This document shows positions 29,554 to 48,067 of a DNA stretch of 64,000 bases, piece after piece. Location of the stretch: the NCBI RefSeq assembly GCF_009725755.1, contig NZ_WNIJ01000001.1, positions 806,001 to 870,000 on the forward strand, read 5' to 3'. A program made the translations under genes and the position numbers. A model generated the notes under the pieces. The model made no database searches. It was not told where the DNA came from and saw nothing but the letters and a program-made list of their open reading frames with translations. Source of the DNA: Bombella sp. ESL0385 (GTDB lineage: Bacteria > Pseudomonadota > Alphaproteobacteria > Acetobacterales > Acetobacteraceae). The number at the start of each line of letters is the position of its first letter. Within the stretch, counting starts at the first letter, position 1.

Positions 29554-30879
29554 TTAGGGGCGGGCTAACCAGCTAGGGACAACGTCTTGTGCGAGAAGCT
29601 CATCAAGCGTTTGGCGTTTACGGATGACGGCCTCTTGGCCATTACTAATCATGATTTGTGCTGCAAAAGGACGAGAATTATAGGTCGAGCTCATCACTGT
29701 GCCATAAGCCCCTGCATCTAAAAGGGCAATAAGGTCGCCTTTTTTAAGAGGTGGTAAGGTACGTTGACGGGCGAAAATATCGCTGCTTTCACAAATCGGG
29801 CCAACAACATCAACGCGTTCTTCAAGCGTGTCTGTAGGTGGGGCGTGTAAGGGTAAGATACCATGCCATGAATCATACATAGCGGGGCGAACAAGGTCAT
29901 TCATCCCGGCATCAATGATAACAAAACGGCGCGCTGCCTCTTTAACATTAATAACGCGCGCAAGCAGCACCCCCGCCGGGGCTGCGAGCCAACGGCCCGG
30001 TTCGATATGAAGGTGAACGTCCAATCCCCCCAATGTCTCGGCAATGACCTTAGCCCAGAGCGCAGGCGGGGGGGCGTCCTCACCACGATAGGCGATGCCA
30101 AGCCCGCCGCCGCAATCAATATCGGTGACAGATAAGCCATCTGCGCGGAGGGTCTTAACGAGCTCCGCAATGCGTTCATACCCTTTGCGGAAGGGGGCTT
30201 CCGCCAGCATTTGGCTACCGAGATGGACCGCTAGACCGACAAGCTCCACCCCCTTCATCTCCTGCTGTGTGCGGCGATATAAGGCAGGGATGAGGTTATA
30301 AGCGATGCCAAACTTATCTTCAGCGCGTCCGGTTGTGATTTTACTATGGGTTTGGGCATCAATATCGGGATTAACGCGGAAGGCAACGCGCACACGTTGT
30401 TGAAGGGGCTCGGCAAGGTGGTTGATGCGGGTTAGTTCTTCAATACTTTCGATATTGATTTGGCCTATGTTTTGCTGGATGGCATAGGTCAATTCGTTAT
30501 CAGTTTTACCGATTCCCGAAAAGACGATATGGCGCGCTTCCATCCCCGCTGTAAGGGCGCGCTTTAGCTCCCCCCCGCTGACAACATCCGCGCCAAAGCC
30601 ACATTGTGCGAGGACGTTTAAGCAGGCTTGATGATCCTGCGCTTTTACGGCGAAATGATAGCCCATAGATAGGCCGCGCTCTTTAAAAGCGGCCTGCATG
30701 TTATGTGCACGTTGGCGCAATGTGTCGGCACTGATAACCCAGCTTGGCGTACCATAACGCTCAGCAAGGGGGGCTAGGGCTGTTCCATCCATCATTAAAC
30801 CCTGCTTGTTGTCATAATGCAGGCTGGGATGAGTCGCGAGGAGGCGATGGAAGGTCGGGTCTGAAGCTGCGGAAGTCAT
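29554..30879 (-). CDS. lysA: Diaminopimelate decarboxylase
   Basis: 441 residues. PLP-dependent last step of lysine synthesis: meso-DAP to lysine. PLP Lys lies in YHFAVKAQDH; HIVFSGIGKT, VHLGSQ, DCGGGLGIAYRGE (phosphate loop), HIEPGRWLAAPAGVLL and GPICESSDIFAR (active-site Cys from the second subunit) match the family. Most homologues have Asn where this one has Gln in VKAQ. ATG 30879; no strong SD. Upstream of the DUF4175 gene in the same operon. Confidence 0.96.
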   Translation of the reverse strand: MTSAASDPTFHRLLATHPSLHYDNKQGLMMDGTALAPLAERYGTPSWVISADTLRQRAHNMQAAFKERGLSMGYHFAVKAQDHQACLNVLAQCGFGADVVSGGELKRALTAGMEARHIVFSGIGKTDNELTYAIQQNIGQINIESIEELTRINHLAEPLQQRVRVAFRVNPDIDAQTHSKITTGRAEDKFGIAYNLIPALYRRTQQEMKGVELVGLAVHLGSQMLAEAPFRKGYERIAELVKTLRADGLSVTDIDCGGGLGIAYRGEDAPPPALWAKVIAETLGGLDVHLHIEPGRWLAAPAGVLLARVINVKEAARRFVIIDAGMNDLVRPAMYDSWHGILPLHAPPTDTLEERVDVVGPICESSDIFARQRTLPPLKKGDLIALLDAGAYGTVMSSTYNSRPFAAQIMISNGQEAVIRKRQTLDELLAQDVVPSWLARP

Positions 30880-31008: not shown

Positions 31009-31060
31009 CCCGGCTTATAGAGGGAGATTTTTCTTATAAAAAGGAGATTATTAAAACATT

Positions 31061-32296
31061 ATGACGAAAAGAAAGATACTTGTCACATTTGCAGGGCGTG
31101 AAGACCGGATGGGTCTTTTAAGAAAGCATATTTCGTCCTTATTAGATGCCGGGTTTTTGGATGAATGGCATGTATGGGATTTTACAAGAACAGAAAAAGA
31201 CCGTGCTTATATTTCATCACATTATGGTCCTGCATGTTTTTTAAGGCCAGAGGCGGGGTATCATTCTGTTGGGATGATAGAGCGTGGTGCAGGGCGTGAT
31301 GTGGCATTCATGGCGGCATCAGATGTGCATGTCGCCATTAAACCAGCCGGTCATGATCAATTTTTGGAATATGTGATTGGGGGGTGGCAGAATCGTGGCT
31401 CGATGATTCGGCAGTTAGAGGGGGCTGCTTTTTCAACGTATGAGCGGCAGGCAGGGCAATGTTTGCATCAAGCCAGTACGCCGTCTGTTTTATGTGGGCA
31501 TCTTAAAGATAAGCTGCGAATTCACTTGAGTGATGAAGGGGTGTTGCAGCTTGGCGTCTCTGCTTACCAATTCCCAGAGGTCCCCTTGCGGGGCGATATT
31601 GGTGAGGTAGAGGTTTTCATCCGTGGTGGGTTTGGGAGTTCGGTAGAGCTGCCAGAGGTTACAGGGCCGATTCGGCGTTTTATTGGGGATAGGGGATGCC
31701 AGAAGCCTTATTGGCAGGCTTATCAATATTATGTGGAGCGTTATGAGGCGTATAAAGAGGCCATCTTCTTAAAATGTGATGATGATATTATTTACCTGCA
31801 AGAAGATCGCATTGCTGACTTTATACGCTGTATTGAAGAACGAACCGATAAGTTTCTCATCTCGGCTAATGTCGTGAATAATGGTGTCTGTGCTTATCTT
31901 CAGCAACAAGCTGGGCATTTGCCGCAGGCTCTTGGGGCTTTTGAACATCCTGAAGGGGGTTTTGGAGGGAGCTTATGGCAAGATGGGCAAAAAGCTTATG
32001 ACGTACATCGTTATTTTGTAACGCAAGGCAAGCCTGCCTTCCCGTTAGGGGAAGCGTTGATGGATGTGGAGGCGCGTCTTTCCATCAATTTCATCGGTTG
32101 GCGGGGGGAGATGTTGCGTTATATGCAAATAACGCCGCAAGATGATGATGAGCATATGCTAAGCGTTGTTCTGCCACGGTTTCTTGGTAAAAAGGTGGCG
32201 ATTTTCTCGGATTTTATGGTCAGTCACCTCAGCTTCTTCCCGCAAGAAGACGCTGTGAAAGCTGATGAAATCAGCAAGCTGTACGATACTGCATGA
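31061..32296 (+). CDS. Glycosyltransferase-like protein with inserted PF12248-like domain
   Basis: 411 residues. The N-terminal ~60 residues and residues ~210-400 look like a nucleotide-sugar glycosyltransferase: LVTFAGREDRMGLLRKH, FLKCDDDIIYL (DxD-type metal site, Asp 240-242) and SANVVNNGVCAY. Between them residues ~80-200 read like the farnesoic-acid-O-methyltransferase (PF12248) module: ASDVHVAI, EYVIGGWQNRGSMIR and RIHLSDEGVLQLGV match its conserved blocks. That module is best known from animals and its function is unclear. AT-richer than its neighbours, has its own promoter, and abuts tandem tRNA-Arg genes, hinting at acquisition. AAGGAG lies 14 bases before ATG, a long spacing. Acceptor and donor unknown. 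Confidence 0.6.
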   Translation: MTKRKILVTFAGREDRMGLLRKHISSLLDAGFLDEWHVWDFTRTEKDRAYISSHYGPACFLRPEAGYHSVGMIERGAGRDVAFMAASDVHVAIKPAGHDQFLEYVIGGWQNRGSMIRQLEGAAFSTYERQAGQCLHQASTPSVLCGHLKDKLRIHLSDEGVLQLGVSAYQFPEVPLRGDIGEVEVFIRGGFGSSVELPEVTGPIRRFIGDRGCQKPYWQAYQYYVERYEAYKEAIFLKCDDDIIYLQEDRIADFIRCIEERTDKFLISANVVNNGVCAYLQQQAGHLPQALGAFEHPEGGFGGSLWQDGQKAYDVHRYFVTQGKPAFPLGEALMDVEARLSINFIGWRGEMLRYMQITPQDDDEHMLSVVLPRFLGKKVAIFSDFMVSHLSFFPQEDAVKADEISKLYDTA

Positions 32297-32302
32297 GGAG
32301 AT

Positions 32303-32379
32303 TGGTGCACCCGGGAGGACTCGAACCTCCAACCCCCAGATTCGTAGTCTGGTGCTCTATCCAATTGAGCTACGGGTGC
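32303..32379 (-). tRNA. tRNA-Arg(ACG), copy 1
   Basis: 77 bases including encoded CCA. Acceptor GCACCCG/CGGGTGC, D-arm with AGCTCAATTGGATAGAGC, anticodon stem CCAGA/TCTGG with loop CTACGAA (anticodon ACG, to be edited to ICG), and T-loop GGTTCGAGTCC. Identical to the second copy. Confidence 0.97.
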
Positions 32380-32409: not shown

Positions 32410-32486
32410 TGGTGCACCCGGGAGGACTCGAACCTCCAACCCCCAGATTCGTAGTCTGGTGCTCTATCCAATTGAGCTACGGGTGC
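32410..32486 (-). tRNA. tRNA-Arg(ACG), copy 2
   Basis: Same 77-base sequence as copy 1, including encoded CCA, separated from it by 30 bases. Both are on the minus strand, so this copy is transcribed first. Confidence 0.97.
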
Positions 32487-43486: not shown

Positions 43487-45442
43487 GTGAGCGCGACGTT
43501 GTCCCGTCATAAAATTGATGCCACAGCGGTGGAGCAAGCGGTTAAGGCCTCGCACACCGCTTTGGGCAAACGTCAAAAGGAAGATGGTCATTGGGTCTTC
43601 GAGCTAGAGGCTGATGCCACCATTCCTGCTGAATATGTCTTGCTGCGGCACTTTCTCGACCGGATAGATGAGCCTCTTGAGCAAAAAATAGGCGTGTATC
43701 TCCGGCGTATCCAAGGGGTGCATGGGGGTTGGTCTCTTTATACGGATGGGAAGTTCGACCTCTCAGCGAGCGTGAAGGCCTATTTCGCCCTCAAGATGAT
43801 TGGCGATGATATTAATGCCCCCCATATGCGCCGGGCGCGTGCGGCCATCCTTCAACATGGCGGGGCTGAGCGGAGTAACGTTTTTACGCGGATTCAACTC
43901 GCTTTATATGGGGAAGTGCCGTGGCATGCCGTCCCTGTTATGCCGATAGAGCTGATGTTACTGCCGCGAAAGGCCTTCTTCTCCGTTTGGAATATGTCTT
44001 ATTGGTCCCGCACGGTCATTGCCTCGCTTTTGATTCTTGTGACGCGTAAACCATTAGCGATTAATCCGCGTGGTGTGCATGTGCAGGAGCTATTTAAAAC
44101 TCCCCCAGCACAGGTGAAGGATTGGATACGTGGGCCTTATCGCTCCATTTGGGGGCGGCTCTTTACCTATCTGGATAAAGCTTTGCGTCCCGTTGTGCCG
44201 CATATTCCACGCTCTATTCATGCAAAAGCGATTCGGACAACTATTCAATTTGTGGAAGAACGGCTTAGTGCGGGTGGGTTAGGGGCTATTTACCCCTCCA
44301 TGGCCAATGTCGTGATGATGTATCGGGTCATGGGCGTGCCTGATGATGATCCACGGGCTGTAGAAGCTTGGCAAGCTGTGCAAGATTTGCTGGTTGTGAA
44401 GGACGATGAGGCTTATTGCCAGCCGTGTGTCTCGCCTGTGTGGGATACGGGGCTTTCTGGTCTTGCGATGATGGAGGCCGCGACAGGCCCCAAAGCTGTA
44501 CAGAATGCCGAGACAATGGCTGCTTTGGAGAAGGCGGCGTCATGGTTGCGTGAACGGCAGATTCTTGATGTGAAAGGCGACTGGGCGATTAATACGCCGC
44601 ATCTGCGCCCGGGTGGCTGGGCCTTTCAATATAAAAACGATTATTATCCTGATGTTGATGATACAGCCGTTGTCGGGATGTTGCTGCATCGGATGGCCCC
44701 AGAGAAAAACGCTCCTGCGATTGAGCGCGCGCGGGAATGGATTATTGGGATGCAAAGCAGTAATGGCGGCTGGGGGGCATTTGATATTGATAACGATCTC
44801 GAAGCTCTCAATCACATCCCGTTCTCAGATCATGGTGCGTTGTTGGACCCGCCAACGGTAGATGTCTCAGCACGGTGTATCTCCTTCCTAGCGCAGTTGG
44901 GGCACCCAGAGGATAAGGACGTTATCCGTAAGGGGATCGACTATATTCGCAAAGAGCAGGAAGTCTCTGGTAGCTGGTTTGGCCGGTGGGGAACGAATTA
45001 TATTTATGGGACATGGTCTGTATTATGTGCCTTGAATATTGCCGGTGTCCCCCATGATGACCCGATGATTCAACGCGCTGTTGCGTGGTTGGAAAGCGTG
45101 CAGAATGATGATGGCGGCTGGGGTGAGGATTGCGCCAGTTATGAGGGGGCTCCGCAAGGGGTATATAAGGAGAGCCTACCGACCCAGACAGCATGGGCTA
45201 CCCTTGGGCTCATGGCTGTCGGGCGGCAGGAGAGCGAGGCTGTGCAACGTGGCATGGCCTATCTTACCCAAGCGCAAGATGAGGCAGGGGAATGGCACGA
45301 AGCCCCCTATAATGCTGTTGGCTTCCCTAAGGTCTTTTACCTGCGTTATCATGGTTATAAGCAATTCTTCCCGCTTATGGCTTTGTCGCGTTATCGCAAT
45401 TTGGCCTCTAGTAATTCGGGCCGGGTGGAGTACGGCTTTTAA
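43487..45442 (+). CDS. shc: Squalene-hopene cyclase
   Basis: 651 residues. Cyclises squalene to hopene at the membrane. Catalytic DxDD motif is in DVDDTAVVG; several QW repeats are visible (GSWFGRWG, DDGGWGEDC, QSSNGGWGAFD). GTG 43487 has GGAGGAGA six bases upstream. The stop shares a base with hpnG (TAATG). Confidence 0.97.
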   Translation: MSATLSRHKIDATAVEQAVKASHTALGKRQKEDGHWVFELEADATIPAEYVLLRHFLDRIDEPLEQKIGVYLRRIQGVHGGWSLYTDGKFDLSASVKAYFALKMIGDDINAPHMRRARAAILQHGGAERSNVFTRIQLALYGEVPWHAVPVMPIELMLLPRKAFFSVWNMSYWSRTVIASLLILVTRKPLAINPRGVHVQELFKTPPAQVKDWIRGPYRSIWGRLFTYLDKALRPVVPHIPRSIHAKAIRTTIQFVEERLSAGGLGAIYPSMANVVMMYRVMGVPDDDPRAVEAWQAVQDLLVVKDDEAYCQPCVSPVWDTGLSGLAMMEAATGPKAVQNAETMAALEKAASWLRERQILDVKGDWAINTPHLRPGGWAFQYKNDYYPDVDDTAVVGMLLHRMAPEKNAPAIERAREWIIGMQSSNGGWGAFDIDNDLEALNHIPFSDHGALLDPPTVDVSARCISFLAQLGHPEDKDVIRKGIDYIRKEQEVSGSWFGRWGTNYIYGTWSVLCALNIAGVPHDDPMIQRAVAWLESVQNDDGGWGEDCASYEGAPQGVYKESLPTQTAWATLGLMAVGRQESEAVQRGMAYLTQAQDEAGEWHEAPYNAVGFPKVFYLRYHGYKQFFPLMALSRYRNLASSNSGRVEYGF

Positions 45443-46071
45443 TGCTCGGCATTATTGTGGGATTAGCGCAAGAGGCTCGTTTGGCTGAACGCTATTTCCC
45501 TCATGCGAAAATCGCCCTTAGCCACGCGCATGAGGCAGGGGCGAAGCGGGCGGTTGCCTCCCTAAAAGAAGCCGGGGTGACGGAGCTGCTCTCCTTTGGC
45601 TGTGCAGGTGGGTTGGACCGTACCTTACAGCCGGGGACGATACAGCTTGCCGATTACGTTTTTGTTGAAGGGAAAAAATACCCGACCTCCCCAGCCTTAA
45701 ATACGCGTTTTGGGGCGGGGCAGGCGGTCATCGGCGGTGGGGTGTATCATAGCCCGATTATGCTCGATCGTGCGGCTGAAAAAGCCGCCTGCTTTACGCG
45801 CAGCCAGTGTTCTACAGTGGATATGGAGAGCGGGTTAGTGGCACAAGCGGGCCTGCCTTTTGCCGTGCTGCGTGTTGTGTGTGATGATGCGGGGCGAGAC
45901 CTTCCCCCTGCAGCGCGCGATGGGCTGCGTGAGGGGCGCATTGATATTGCTGCGTTAATGGGGTCCCTAATACGCCATCCGCTGCAAATTAGTGCGCTTA
46001 TCAGTTTAGGGCGCGATGCTGCTCATGCAGGGCGTGTTATGGAGCGGTTTTTACAAAAAATAACATCCTAG
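45442..46071 (+). CDS. hpnG: Adenosylhopane nucleosidase HpnG
   Basis: 209 residues of the nucleoside phosphorylase fold. LSFGCAGGLDRTLQPG and STVDMESGLVAQ (base/ribose-binding Glu) are seen. HpnG removes adenine from adenosylhopane to give ribosylhopane. Last gene of the operon. The preceding-step gene, hpnH, is not in this window, so it must be elsewhere if extended hopanoids are made. Confidence 0.88.
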   Translation: MLGIIVGLAQEARLAERYFPHAKIALSHAHEAGAKRAVASLKEAGVTELLSFGCAGGLDRTLQPGTIQLADYVFVEGKKYPTSPALNTRFGAGQAVIGGGVYHSPIMLDRAAEKAACFTRSQCSTVDMESGLVAQAGLPFAVLRVVCDDAGRDLPPAARDGLREGRIDIAALMGSLIRHPLQISALISLGRDAAHAGRVMERFLQKITS

Positions 46072-46242: not shown

Positions 46243-47031
46243 ATGGCAATGCCACAATTCACAATGCGTCAACTGCTTGAGGCTGGTGTTCATTTCGGTC
46301 ACCATACCCGCCGTTGGAACCCTGCTATGGCACCGTATCTTTTCGGTGTGCGTAATCAGGTTCATATCATCGACCTTCAGCAGACTGTACCGCTGTTAGA
46401 CCGCGCTTTGAAGCAAGTGCGTGACACGGTTGCTTCTGGTGGGCGTGTCCTGTTTGTGGGGACAAAGCGCGCTGCAGCGGATCTCGTGGCAGAGGCAGCA
46501 CAGCGTTGCGGCCAGTATTACGTGAATCACCGTTGGCTCGGTGGTATGTTGACGAACTGGAAGACCATCACCGGTTCCATTAAGCGTCTGCGCGGCATTG
46601 ATGAGATGCTCGCTGGCGATACAACGGGCCTGACGAAGAAGGAAATCCTCGACATCACCCGTGATCGTGAGAAGCTGGAACGCTCCCTCGGTGGGATTAA
46701 GGATATGGGTGGCCTGCCGGACCTTCTGTTTGTGATTGATACAAACAAAGAGAAGCTGGCTGTTGAGGAAGCCAATAAGCTGGGCATCCCCGTGATCGCT
46801 GTGCTGGATAGCAACTCCGACCCTAAGGGTGTGACCTTCCCCATCCCCGGTAACGATGATGCTATCCGCGCTATTGCAACTTATTGCGAGCTGATTTCCG
46901 GTGCTGTGCTGGATGGTATCTCTGCCGAGTTGGCAGCATCTGGCCAGGATATTGGGGCTTCTGCGGAGCTGCCAGTGGAGGAGACCGCCGCTGTAGAGAA
47001 GGCCGAGGCTGCCGCTCCGACAGCTGGCTAA
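46243..47031 (+). CDS. rpsB: 30S ribosomal protein S2
   Basis: 262 residues. Structural protein of the small ribosomal subunit. [17 protein letters not shown] is the S2 opening signature; [39 protein letters not shown] and [17 protein letters not shown] are all present. The C-terminal Ala/Glu-rich tail is typical of Alphaproteobacteria. Followed by tsf. Confidence 0.98.
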
Positions 47032-47044
47032 GCTGTATAAAGTA

Positions 47045-47079
47045 AGCGTAGCGTCTAGCCCTATGCGGGATGCTACGCT
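47045..47079 (+). repeat. Hairpin 1 between rpsB and tsf
   Basis: AGCGTAGC/GCTACGCT, 8-bp perfect stem with a 19-base loop, 14 bases after rpsB. Confidence 0.5.
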
Positions 47080-47101
47080 GCCTATGTGCGTATAGAGAGC
47101 C

Positions 47102-47130
47102 GCACAGCCGTGGGGTCCCCGTGGCTGTGC
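47102..47130 (+). repeat. Hairpin 2 between rpsB and tsf
   Basis: GCACAGCCGTGGGG/CCCCGTGGCTGTGC can pair over nearly its whole length (12 Watson-Crick plus two G-U), with little loop. No T-tract follows; may attenuate tsf relative to rpsB or stop mRNA decay. Confidence 0.55.
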
Positions 47131-47155
47131 CGCTTGTTATTAGAGGTTAGAGACT

Positions 47156-48067
47156 ATGGCAGAGATTACAGCAGCAATGGTGCGCGAGCTGCGCGATGCA
47201 ACAAGTGCCGGCATGATGGATTGTAAAAAAGCCCTGACCGAAGCTAAGGGCGACATGCAAGCCGCGATTGACTGGTTGCGGAAGAAGGGCCTCTCCCAAG
47301 CCGCAAAGAAATCCGGCCGTGTGGCGGCTGAGGGTCTCGTTGCTGTAGCGGTTGAGGGCAAAAAGGCTGCTCTGGTTGAGGTGAACGCGGAGACGGACTT
47401 CGTTGCGCGTAATGATGCCTTCCAGCAGGCTGTGGAAGATATCGCCAAAGTTGCGCTGAAGGTCGGTGATGATTTAGAGGCTGTTAAGGCCGCTAAAATG
47501 CCGTCTGGTCGTACAGTGGCTGATGAGCTGACCCATCTTGTCGCAACAATCGGCGAGAATATGAGCCTCCGCCGCGTGAGCGTGCTGAGCGTTCCTTCTG
47601 GCGTTGTAGCGAGCTATGTCCACGGTGCGCTGCGTCCGGGTGTTGGCCGCATCGGTGTGTTGGCTGCGATTGAGGCTCCTTCCGAGAGTGAGGCTCTGCT
47701 CACATTGGGTCGTCAGATTGGTATGCATGTTGCAGCCACCAGCCCGACCGCTCTGGATATTGATAGTGTGGATGCTGCTGCTGTGGCGCATGAGCGTAAG
47801 GTGCTGGAGGAGCAAGCCCGTAACTCTGGCAAGCCAGAAGCTATCATTGAGAAGATGGTCGATGGGCGTATCCGTAAGTTCTATGAGGAAGTGGTTCTTC
47901 TGGAGCAAGTCTGGGTGCATGACGGTGAGAGCCGCGTGAAGGAAGTTGTCAAAAAGGCTGGGGCAAAGCTGGTCGGCTTTACGCGCTTTAAACTCGGTGA
48001 AGGCATCGAGAAGGCTGAGACAGACTTCGCGGCTGAGGTCGCTGCGGCTTCTGGCCAAAAGAAATAA
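47156..48067 (+). CDS. tsf: Elongation factor Ts
   Basis: 303 residues. Nucleotide exchange factor for EF-Tu. The N-terminal UBA-like domain [19 protein letters not shown] and the core [14 protein letters not shown] are family signatures. rpsB-tsf is the standard pair; a terminator follows. Confidence 0.98.

Follow-up and report, generated by a model that had tools for sequence, protein, structure and literature searches.

A putative GT-A-type glycosyltransferase with a nested PF12248 module at a tRNA-Arg locus of Bombella sp. ESL0385

The alphaproteobacterium Bombella sp. ESL0385 (Acetobacteraceae; assembly GCF_009725755.1) carries, next to two identical tRNA-Arg(ACG) genes, a gene for a 411-amino-acid protein in which a module of the PF12248 family is nested within a predicted glycosyltransferase core. 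Here, we describe this gene and its relatives, starting from a stretch of 64,000 nucleotides of contig NZ_WNIJ01000001.1 (positions 806,001 to 870,000 of the forward strand), referred to as the window (Table 1). Upstream, in divergent orientation, lies a decarboxylase-like gene that is presumably lysA-like. The initial annotation of this DNA had described the gene as adjoining tRNAs, rich in AT, and equipped with its own promoter. The tRNA genes are indeed its immediate neighbors. Richness in AT holds for the gene as a whole (GC content of 0.472 versus 0.539 in the window, a value among the lowest 2.5% for segments of this size) and for the two parts of the core (0.383 and 0.459), which form the AT-rich portion, but not for the insert (0.527). 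The promoter found no backing in a consensus scan, which returned no plus-strand site upstream of the gene and a total of three sites, within the level of shuffled sequences (2.3, standard deviation 1.7).

Table 1. Positions of the gene, its parts, and the bordering features in the window
Feature	Position	Strand	Remarks
Whole gene	31061..32296	+	411 amino acids, GT-A-type glycosyltransferase with nested PF12248 module; ATG start
AAAGGAG, possible ribosome-binding site	31040..31046	+	14 nucleotides 5' of ATG; read from sequence
Glycosyltransferase core, N-terminal part	31061..31243	+	Residues 1-61; TFAGRxxRM, DEWHVWDF; also in insertless phage homologues
Nested beta-sandwich insert	31244..31681	+	Residues ~62-207; missing from insertless relatives
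PF12248 (Methyltransf_FA) match	31301..31558	+	Residues 81-166
GGWxNxxSxxR block of module	31379..31411	+	Residues 107-117
Glycosyltransferase core, C-terminal part	31682..32293	+	Residues 208-411
CDDD, DxD-type metal/nucleotide site	31775..31786	+	Residues 239-242; invariant 27/27; role by analogy
D363-E364, invariant acidic pair	32147..32152	+	Candidate catalytic base region, putative role
H389 of HLSF, invariant	32225..32227	+	Candidate metal ligand, putative role
tRNA-Arg(ACG), downstream border of insertion site	32303..32379	-	
Second tRNA-Arg(ACG), identical to first	32410..32486	-	
Decarboxylase-like gene, upstream border of insertion site	29554..30879	-	

PF12248, the farnesoic acid O-methyltransferase (FAMeT) domain, is best known from animals. 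Methyl transfer to farnesoic acid by the arthropod PF12248 proteins has been doubted, with the activity reported as not demonstrated (PMC10015273). In the window protein, the match to PF12248 has an E value of 2e-6 and 28.0 bits against a curated cut-off of 24.2, and it was the sole Pfam family at E<=10. A scan of the whole genome returned this single place with 30.1 bits, and none of 14 control genomes matched. Among 27 aligned members (the window protein and 26 relatives), PF12248 was detected at E<=1 in all 27 and at E<=1e-4 in 25, with a best E value of 3.6e-15 in a stricter Pfam scan. Thus, the PF12248-like insert of the initial annotation, whose quoted blocks are present in the open reading frame (ORF), is upheld by a significant profile match, and the CDDD metal-type motif of the core is likewise present and invariant in all 27 members. 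The profile also scores, at 40.3 bits, a 233-amino-acid alphaproteobacterial ORF (L037:1462-2163, minus strand), in which a bacterial domain, DUF6250 (PF19763), reaches 210.1 bits over the stretch matched by PF12248; DUF6250 itself gave no match to the window protein at E<=10. Judging by these profile scores, PF12248 and DUF6250 are probably related families of the same superfamily, and the match therefore places the insert in a jelly-roll neighborhood rather than proving close kinship with the animal domain. A hit to an NCBIfam single-stranded DNA-binding protein model (E=0.16, 12.1 bits versus a cut-off of 313) and weak Pfam matches common to a small number of relatives (eight with DUF2661, five with NIR_SIR, and further ones, all with E values of 0.013 or worse) were judged to be noise.

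The glycosyltransferase assignment starts from phrog_4447 of PHROGs, a glycosyltransferase family that matches the window protein with an E value of 2.5e-23 and its best stretch at residues 219-354. No named Pfam glycosyltransferase family scored above its cut-off in the window protein or among the families matched by the 27 members, the phage proteins Marvin gp80 and Cornie gp99 had no Pfam match at all, and two bacterial insertless relatives matched PF00535 below its cut-off only (E=0.094 and 0.0051). A tblastn search of phage genomes returned 21 mycobacteriophage records covering approximately residues 198-408, about half of the query. Marvin gp80 (295 amino acids) and Cornie gp99 (269 amino acids) align on both sides of the insert and lack the middle. 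Further relatives without insert were found at six IMG/VR loci (L040 to L043, L045, and L046), including one giant-virus-like contig, and in two alphaproteobacteria, G026 (locus L035), a member of the window's own family, and G169 (locus L066). The gap opposite the window protein measures 141 to 147 residues in the seven insertless rows counted. Insertless homologues keep the motifs GR, WD/WN, DDD, and SIN and the acidic pair, and DDD is present in every insertless row, nine in total, of the tree described below. Since phage, giant-virus-like, and alphaproteobacterial homologues keep the core without the insert, the insert is not an integral part of the glycosyltransferase fold.

With the insertless protein L042 as query, 119 phage records were hit, all from Mycobacterium phages. 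No insert-bearing gene was found in viral contigs in the scan with the window protein, and three viral loci from a profile scan are distant (25-27% identity) and have no insert. Travel of the insert-bearing gene in phages was considered and rejected, as the viral matches lack the insert and the phage records cover about half of the query. In the giant-virus-like contig, the insertless glycosyltransferase is fused to a C-terminal 2-oxoglutarate (2OG)-Fe(II) oxygenase domain (L040:1285-2739; PF13759, E=6.4e-11), and a 2OG-FeII_Oxy_3 gene is among the neighbors of the Nocardia family member (L023). A pairing in which hydroxylation precedes glycosylation is conceivable.

The window protein was modeled with AlphaFold2 on the 27-row alignment, with a mean predicted local distance difference test (pLDDT) score of 91.2 and a predicted template modeling (pTM) score of 0.89. 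In this model, strands from residue 68 to approximately 190 form a beta-sandwich between the parts 1-61 and 208-411, with ten-residue pLDDT means of 84-95. Foldseek returned 95 matches in the PDB at E<=0.001. Among the 50 matches listed, all except three B4GALNT1 rows span 137-220 alignment columns, mainly in the insert, and most are concanavalin A (ConA)-like jelly rolls, namely, GH16 glucanases, CBM66, an Agrocybe galectin, the L-type lectins Emp46/47, PRYSPRY, and neurexin LNS. Here, the common fold of CBM66, galectins, Emp46/Emp47, and GH16 with the insert (template modeling [TM] score by target of up to 0.52 among the matches listed) contrasts with a sequence identity of approximately 5-15% in these matches. 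B4GALNT1 was aligned across the full length of the window protein with a poor superposition (root mean square deviation of ~22). Models of the insertless homologue L042 varied in quality (pLDDT of 88.9 for the best of five and 83.5 to 53.0 for the others, with three of the five below 80). Among the 50 matches listed for it, most were GT-A enzymes (K4CP, COLGALT1, GnT I, LH3, B4GALNT1, and GlcAT-P) and some were nucleotidyltransferases, with TM scores by query of 0.32-0.54. The core is thus predicted to adopt a GT-A fold, as modeled on L042, and together with the confident model of the full protein this sustains the initial proposal of a beta-sandwich inserted in a glycosyltransferase.

Sequence searches for a solved relative gave only WDR33 for the window protein (E=0.4 or worse), and neither the family profile nor the insert profile matched a PDB sequence at E<=1. 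Dehydroquinases matched by the insertless profile (best E=0.0022) were judged to be chance hits because the fold search returns glycosyltransferases. In a viral structure library, the Pithovirus LCPAC201 protein A0A481Z534 (565 amino acids, labeled macrocin-O-methyltransferase) gave a full-length structural match over 409 columns (E=3.4e-10); it may have the same nested architecture.

In GT-A enzymes, a DxD-type acidic motif forms the metal/nucleotide site. The residues invariant in the 27-row alignment fall in DEWHVWDF, CDDDI, SANV, NN, SIN, DE, HLS, and elsewhere, and amount to 19 of 61 and 40 of 204 positions in the N- and C-terminal parts of the core, respectively, and to 6 of 146 in the insert. 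Within the GGWxNxxSxxR block of the module, G107 and N111 are invariant and G108, W109, and R117 nearly so in the 27 sequences, and this block and H90 are conserved in distant members too. The ratio of nonsynonymous to synonymous substitution rates (dN/dS) was calculated according to Nei and Gojobori for seven pairs, which partly overlap, three of them sharing Bombella sequences. It ranged from 0.04 to 0.31 in the insert, where it was below 1 and above the values of both core parts in every pair (the value of 0.31, from the pair L002/L003, rests on very few changes), and from 0.01 to 0.16 in the C-terminal core. The insert is under purifying selection yet changes faster than the core. Between the window gene and L002, synonymous divergence is 0.15 in the C-terminal core and 0.61 in the insert; judging by the sequences, such unequal divergence along the gene suggests recombination.

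A tree of 38 rows was built on 246 core columns. In it, a branch with support of 82/90 separates the 29 insert-bearing rows from the others, and no loss of the insert was seen among them. This fits a single origin of the insert-bearing group, but the program warned of long branches, and a test for one clade returned "not shown, not rejected."

Relatives were collected by a pattern scan with one genome per species, yielding 26 loci, a number that reflects the reach of such a scan rather than a census. The closest relatives of the window's genome in these comparisons are Parasaccharibacter/Bombella, which are honey-bee associates. Their proteins are 87-88% identical to the window protein, followed by Saccharibacter (51%), Rhizobiaceae and other Rhizobiales (~40%), and Methylocystis, Hyphomicrobiales, Acidocella, Arboricoccus, and Nocardia (31-38%). 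Of 120 genomes sampled from the family, two gave a match to the protein, the window's own and that of the insertless G026. In a 398-genome sample of Pseudomonadota, the family profile matched four (G000, G413, and G479 with insert, and G169 without), and PF12248 was likewise found in four, G000, G413, G479, and G446, the last through the DUF6250 protein. In G413, a second copy of the gene lies in pieces on contig 1 (129286-130528; L051, L053, and L068), with stops inside one piece.

At the locus itself, the order of decarboxylase gene, window gene homologue, and tRNA-Arg is kept in the genomes of L002 and L003. In the congeners G032 and G118, the decarboxylase gene is followed by both tRNAs with the gene missing between them, which represents an empty site. 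Saccharibacter G516 has the decarboxylase gene followed by one tRNA and has no gene at this site; the Saccharibacter copy is located elsewhere, beside a GT2 gene. Such a patchy distribution would be expected from horizontal transfer or from repeated loss.

In rhizobia, a set of sugar-related genes recurs beside the family gene. In Rhizobium sp. CCGE532, a gene for a tetratricopeptide repeat (TPR) protein is followed by the family gene and by glf, encoding uridine diphosphate (UDP)-galactopyranose mutase. Pfam, applied to one locus, identified this TPR protein as GT41 (230.7 bits) and a 1687-amino-acid protein encoded nearby as carrying 75 stretches of the ALTTAQ repeat (PF20080). BLASTP against the locus ORFs detected a GT41 homologue upstream in 17 of the 26 genome loci and a glf homologue downstream in 15. 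A further copy of the gene, L071, in the Rhizobium rosettiformans genome to which L016 belongs does show the order GT41, gene, and glf, interrupted by a short additional ORF. Of the 29 genomes with an insert-bearing gene, 20 have ALTTAQ repeats, and in at least 15 of the 29 a glf is located on the contig of the repeats at a distance of 1.1-6.2 kb; in one of those 15, G527, the gene copy L015 appears to be much farther off on the contig. By motif count, ALTTAQ-type proteins are encoded near GT41, glycosyltransferase, and glf genes at L031, L007, L020, L021, L022, L025, and L027, with PF20080 confirmed for L031 and L021, and toward its end the L031 protein (L031:1937-7000, minus strand) contains a Gp5_trimer_C-like stretch. 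A single literature search for the ALTTAQ repeat by name found no paper in the library covered.

A glf gene (PF03275 above cut-off) is present in all 29 genomes with an insert-bearing gene (G000, G413, G479, and the 26 locus genomes), compared to 51 of the 398 sampled Pseudomonadota genomes (50 above cut-off), or 44 of 213 genera. Fisher's exact test gave a p value of 2e-24 when genomes were counted and of 2.5e-7 when 10 genera were counted (nine named ones and g40, after dropping the four metagenome-assembled genomes L018, L019, L022, and L025), and a binomial test with Nocardia left out gave 7e-7. These values are indicative only because the two glf sets were drawn differently and the genomes share ancestry. 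In five other genomes, glf was present in G118, G040, and G169 and missing from G032 and G026.

Several glf-related loci have further features. The glf cluster of the window's genome (L033:9144-19514) encodes several proteins of approximately 220 amino acids that look similar to each other by eye, two of them with no Pfam match at E<=0.001. The glf product of this genome is 52.6-57.2% identical to the 16 rhizobial-type ones. The insertless relative in L066 (3992-7239) is located beside a DUF707 gene and glf, and a DUF707 gene adjoins the Acidocella member gene (L024). In Saccharibacter floricola, glf (L069:6437-7597) lies amid genes that look flagellar by eye, hinting at flagellar glycosylation.

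We propose that the window protein is a GT-A enzyme that, aided by a nested lectin-like module, extends a glycan by a galactose-type sugar, an explanation that, taken as a whole, we consider evenly balanced between being right and being wrong. Computational support for it comes from the domain match, the architecture and nesting, the GT-A-like core of the homologue, the conserved acidic residues, purifying selection, insertless relatives and their phage cassettes, the empty site, and the association with glf and, in rhizobia, with GT41 and ALTTAQ proteins. A ConA-like sandwich of the PF12248 (FAMeT) type would have been inserted, probably once, at a point that follows an early strand of the core and lies ahead of the helix preceding the DxD motif. 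The enzyme would add a galactose-type sugar, perhaps galactofuranose supplied via UDP-galactopyranose mutase, to a glycan already present on a protein or the cell surface. The neighboring GT41/TPR enzyme would, in rhizobia, attach the first sugar, and the modified protein would be a nearby ALTTAQ-repeat giant. The module would then act as a built-in lectin, holding the acceptor glycan beside the active site and thereby conferring specificity or processivity. The weakest steps of this putative mechanism are the choice of donor and the binding of sugar by the module.

Several observations weigh against this proposal. Neither GT41 nor glf is present in the fetched flanks of 9 of the 26 loci (L002 to L004, L015 to L017, L023, L024, and L026). 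In the window's genome, GT41 and ALTTAQ proteins were not found by profile search, so that another acceptor would have to serve there, and glf (PF03275, 258 bits) lies approximately 450 kb from the gene in another glycosyltransferase cluster, whose members are of the GT8, GT92/GT2-like, and DXD types. G118, a congener without the gene, has glf, and of the insertless genomes, G169 has glf two genes away and G026 has none. The glf product could serve another enzyme, the PF12248 profile may not be exclusive, as it also scores the DUF6250 protein, and the insert is the fastest-evolving part of the protein, which would also suit a structural or protein-binding role.

Such a protein-binding role would leave the architecture as proposed and have the module recognize the acceptor polypeptide, comparable to the N-terminal domain of FlmG, or join subunits. 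The fast change of the insert is what would be expected of a module tracking a varying partner. PRYSPRY domains are jelly rolls that bind proteins, and PRYSPRY is among the structural matches. The specificity of FlmG is described as being set by its flagellin-binding domain (PMC7591256). However, conservation of H90 and the GGWxNxxSxxR block among distant members and the carbohydrate-binding nature of several of the closest folds argue against a protein ligand, and we regard this explanation as doubtful.

It is also imaginable that the enzyme participates in the synthesis of a surface polysaccharide (lipopolysaccharide, capsule, or exopolysaccharide) unrelated to proteins, with glf providing the galactofuranose therein. 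The company of glf in the window's genome, the GT2 neighbor in Saccharibacter, and two glycosyltransferase genes within approximately 9 kb in G413 would suit this explanation. On the other hand, the recurrent neighbors in rhizobia are the GT41/TPR enzyme and the ALTTAQ giants, and other GT41 enzymes are reported to glycosylate proteins (PMC3012730). The insertless relatives in phages also bear on this question. In Marvin, Cornie, and Firecracker, a gene annotated as methyltransferase is followed by the insertless homologue and a "galactosyl transferase" gene, with a "glucosyltransferase" gene also following in Marvin and Firecracker, and the Firecracker cassette is located between the portal and capsid-protease genes, a position that speaks against a polysaccharide product. 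We consider a pure polysaccharide role unlikely. Glycosylation of virion proteins has been reported for mycobacteriophages, a process for which Che8 gp110 and Corndog gp38 are described as essential (PMC12363180). Identity of the insertless core with this reported virion glycosylation enzyme found no support in a comparison of L042 with two Che8 proteins, gp110 (E=1.1) and gp108 (E=0.30), neither of which is similar to it. In phage Tesla, however, the insertless homologue is followed at a distance of approximately 1 kb by a gene for a relative of Che8 gp110 (45152-45763 and 46716-47276).

A further alternative, in which the module contributes nothing itself and a neutral insertion has persisted only because the enzyme would unfold without it, is very improbable, since its fast evolution relative to the core and the ability of insertless relatives to manage without it are outweighed by purifying selection on the insert, the conserved polar and tryptophan residues of the GGWxNxxSxxR block, and the absence of insert loss among the 29 insert-bearing rows.

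In comparison with known proteins, the window protein shares with the animal PF12248 (FAMeT) domain a sequence family above cut-off and differs in that the domain is nested here in a bacterial glycosyltransferase. It shares the catalytic core with the phrog_4447 proteins Marvin gp80, Cornie gp99, and Firecracker gp34, whereas these have no insert and reside in phage glycan cassettes, and the window gene is chromosomal and stands alone. By analogy of design, the closest parallel would be the plant enzymes GALT2 to GALT6. In these, the galectin domain sits at the N terminus and is not nested. They are described as galactosyltransferases with a lectin-type domain that sister enzymes lack, but the domain is a galectin (PF00337), the catalytic part belongs to another glycosyltransferase family, GT31, and of the role that this domain plays the source says that it "is not known" (PMC8667403). 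HMW1C-like GT41 enzymes with their adhesin (PMC3012730) and FlmG in flagellin O-glycosylation (PMC7591256) are described as glycosyltransferases modifying a surface protein, and in the rhizobial loci genes for a GT41/TPR enzyme and for ALTTAQ giants likewise occur together, with the PF12248 glycosyltransferase and glf as additional components. A bolder extension of the proposed lectin-bearing GT-A enzyme holds that PF12248 is a lectin family for galactose or galactofuranose glycans and that GT41, the PF12248 glycosyltransferase, glf, and ALTTAQ proteins constitute an undescribed system galactofuranosylating giant repeat proteins, in which the lectin makes the second enzyme processive; we rate it as distinctly improbable.

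A literature search by title and the beginning of the abstract, with preprints and most subscription papers outside its reach, found no paper describing a fusion of PF12248 with a glycosyltransferase. The module is unusual and the recurring gene set suggestive; lectin-bearing glycosyltransferases are of a known kind, and the order of the domains may already be visible in database annotations. PF12248 was named after an activity that arthropod work could not show (PMC10015273), and it is found here inside an enzyme whose chemistry can be guessed, in genomes that all carry glf. The existence of insert-bearing enzymes alongside natural insertless relatives makes the function of the animal domain amenable to comparison with and without the insert. 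Furthermore, the family gives the plant galectin-GT31 enzymes a counterpart in bacteria and, in rhizobia, raises the possibility of a glycosylation system for ALTTAQ-repeat giants.

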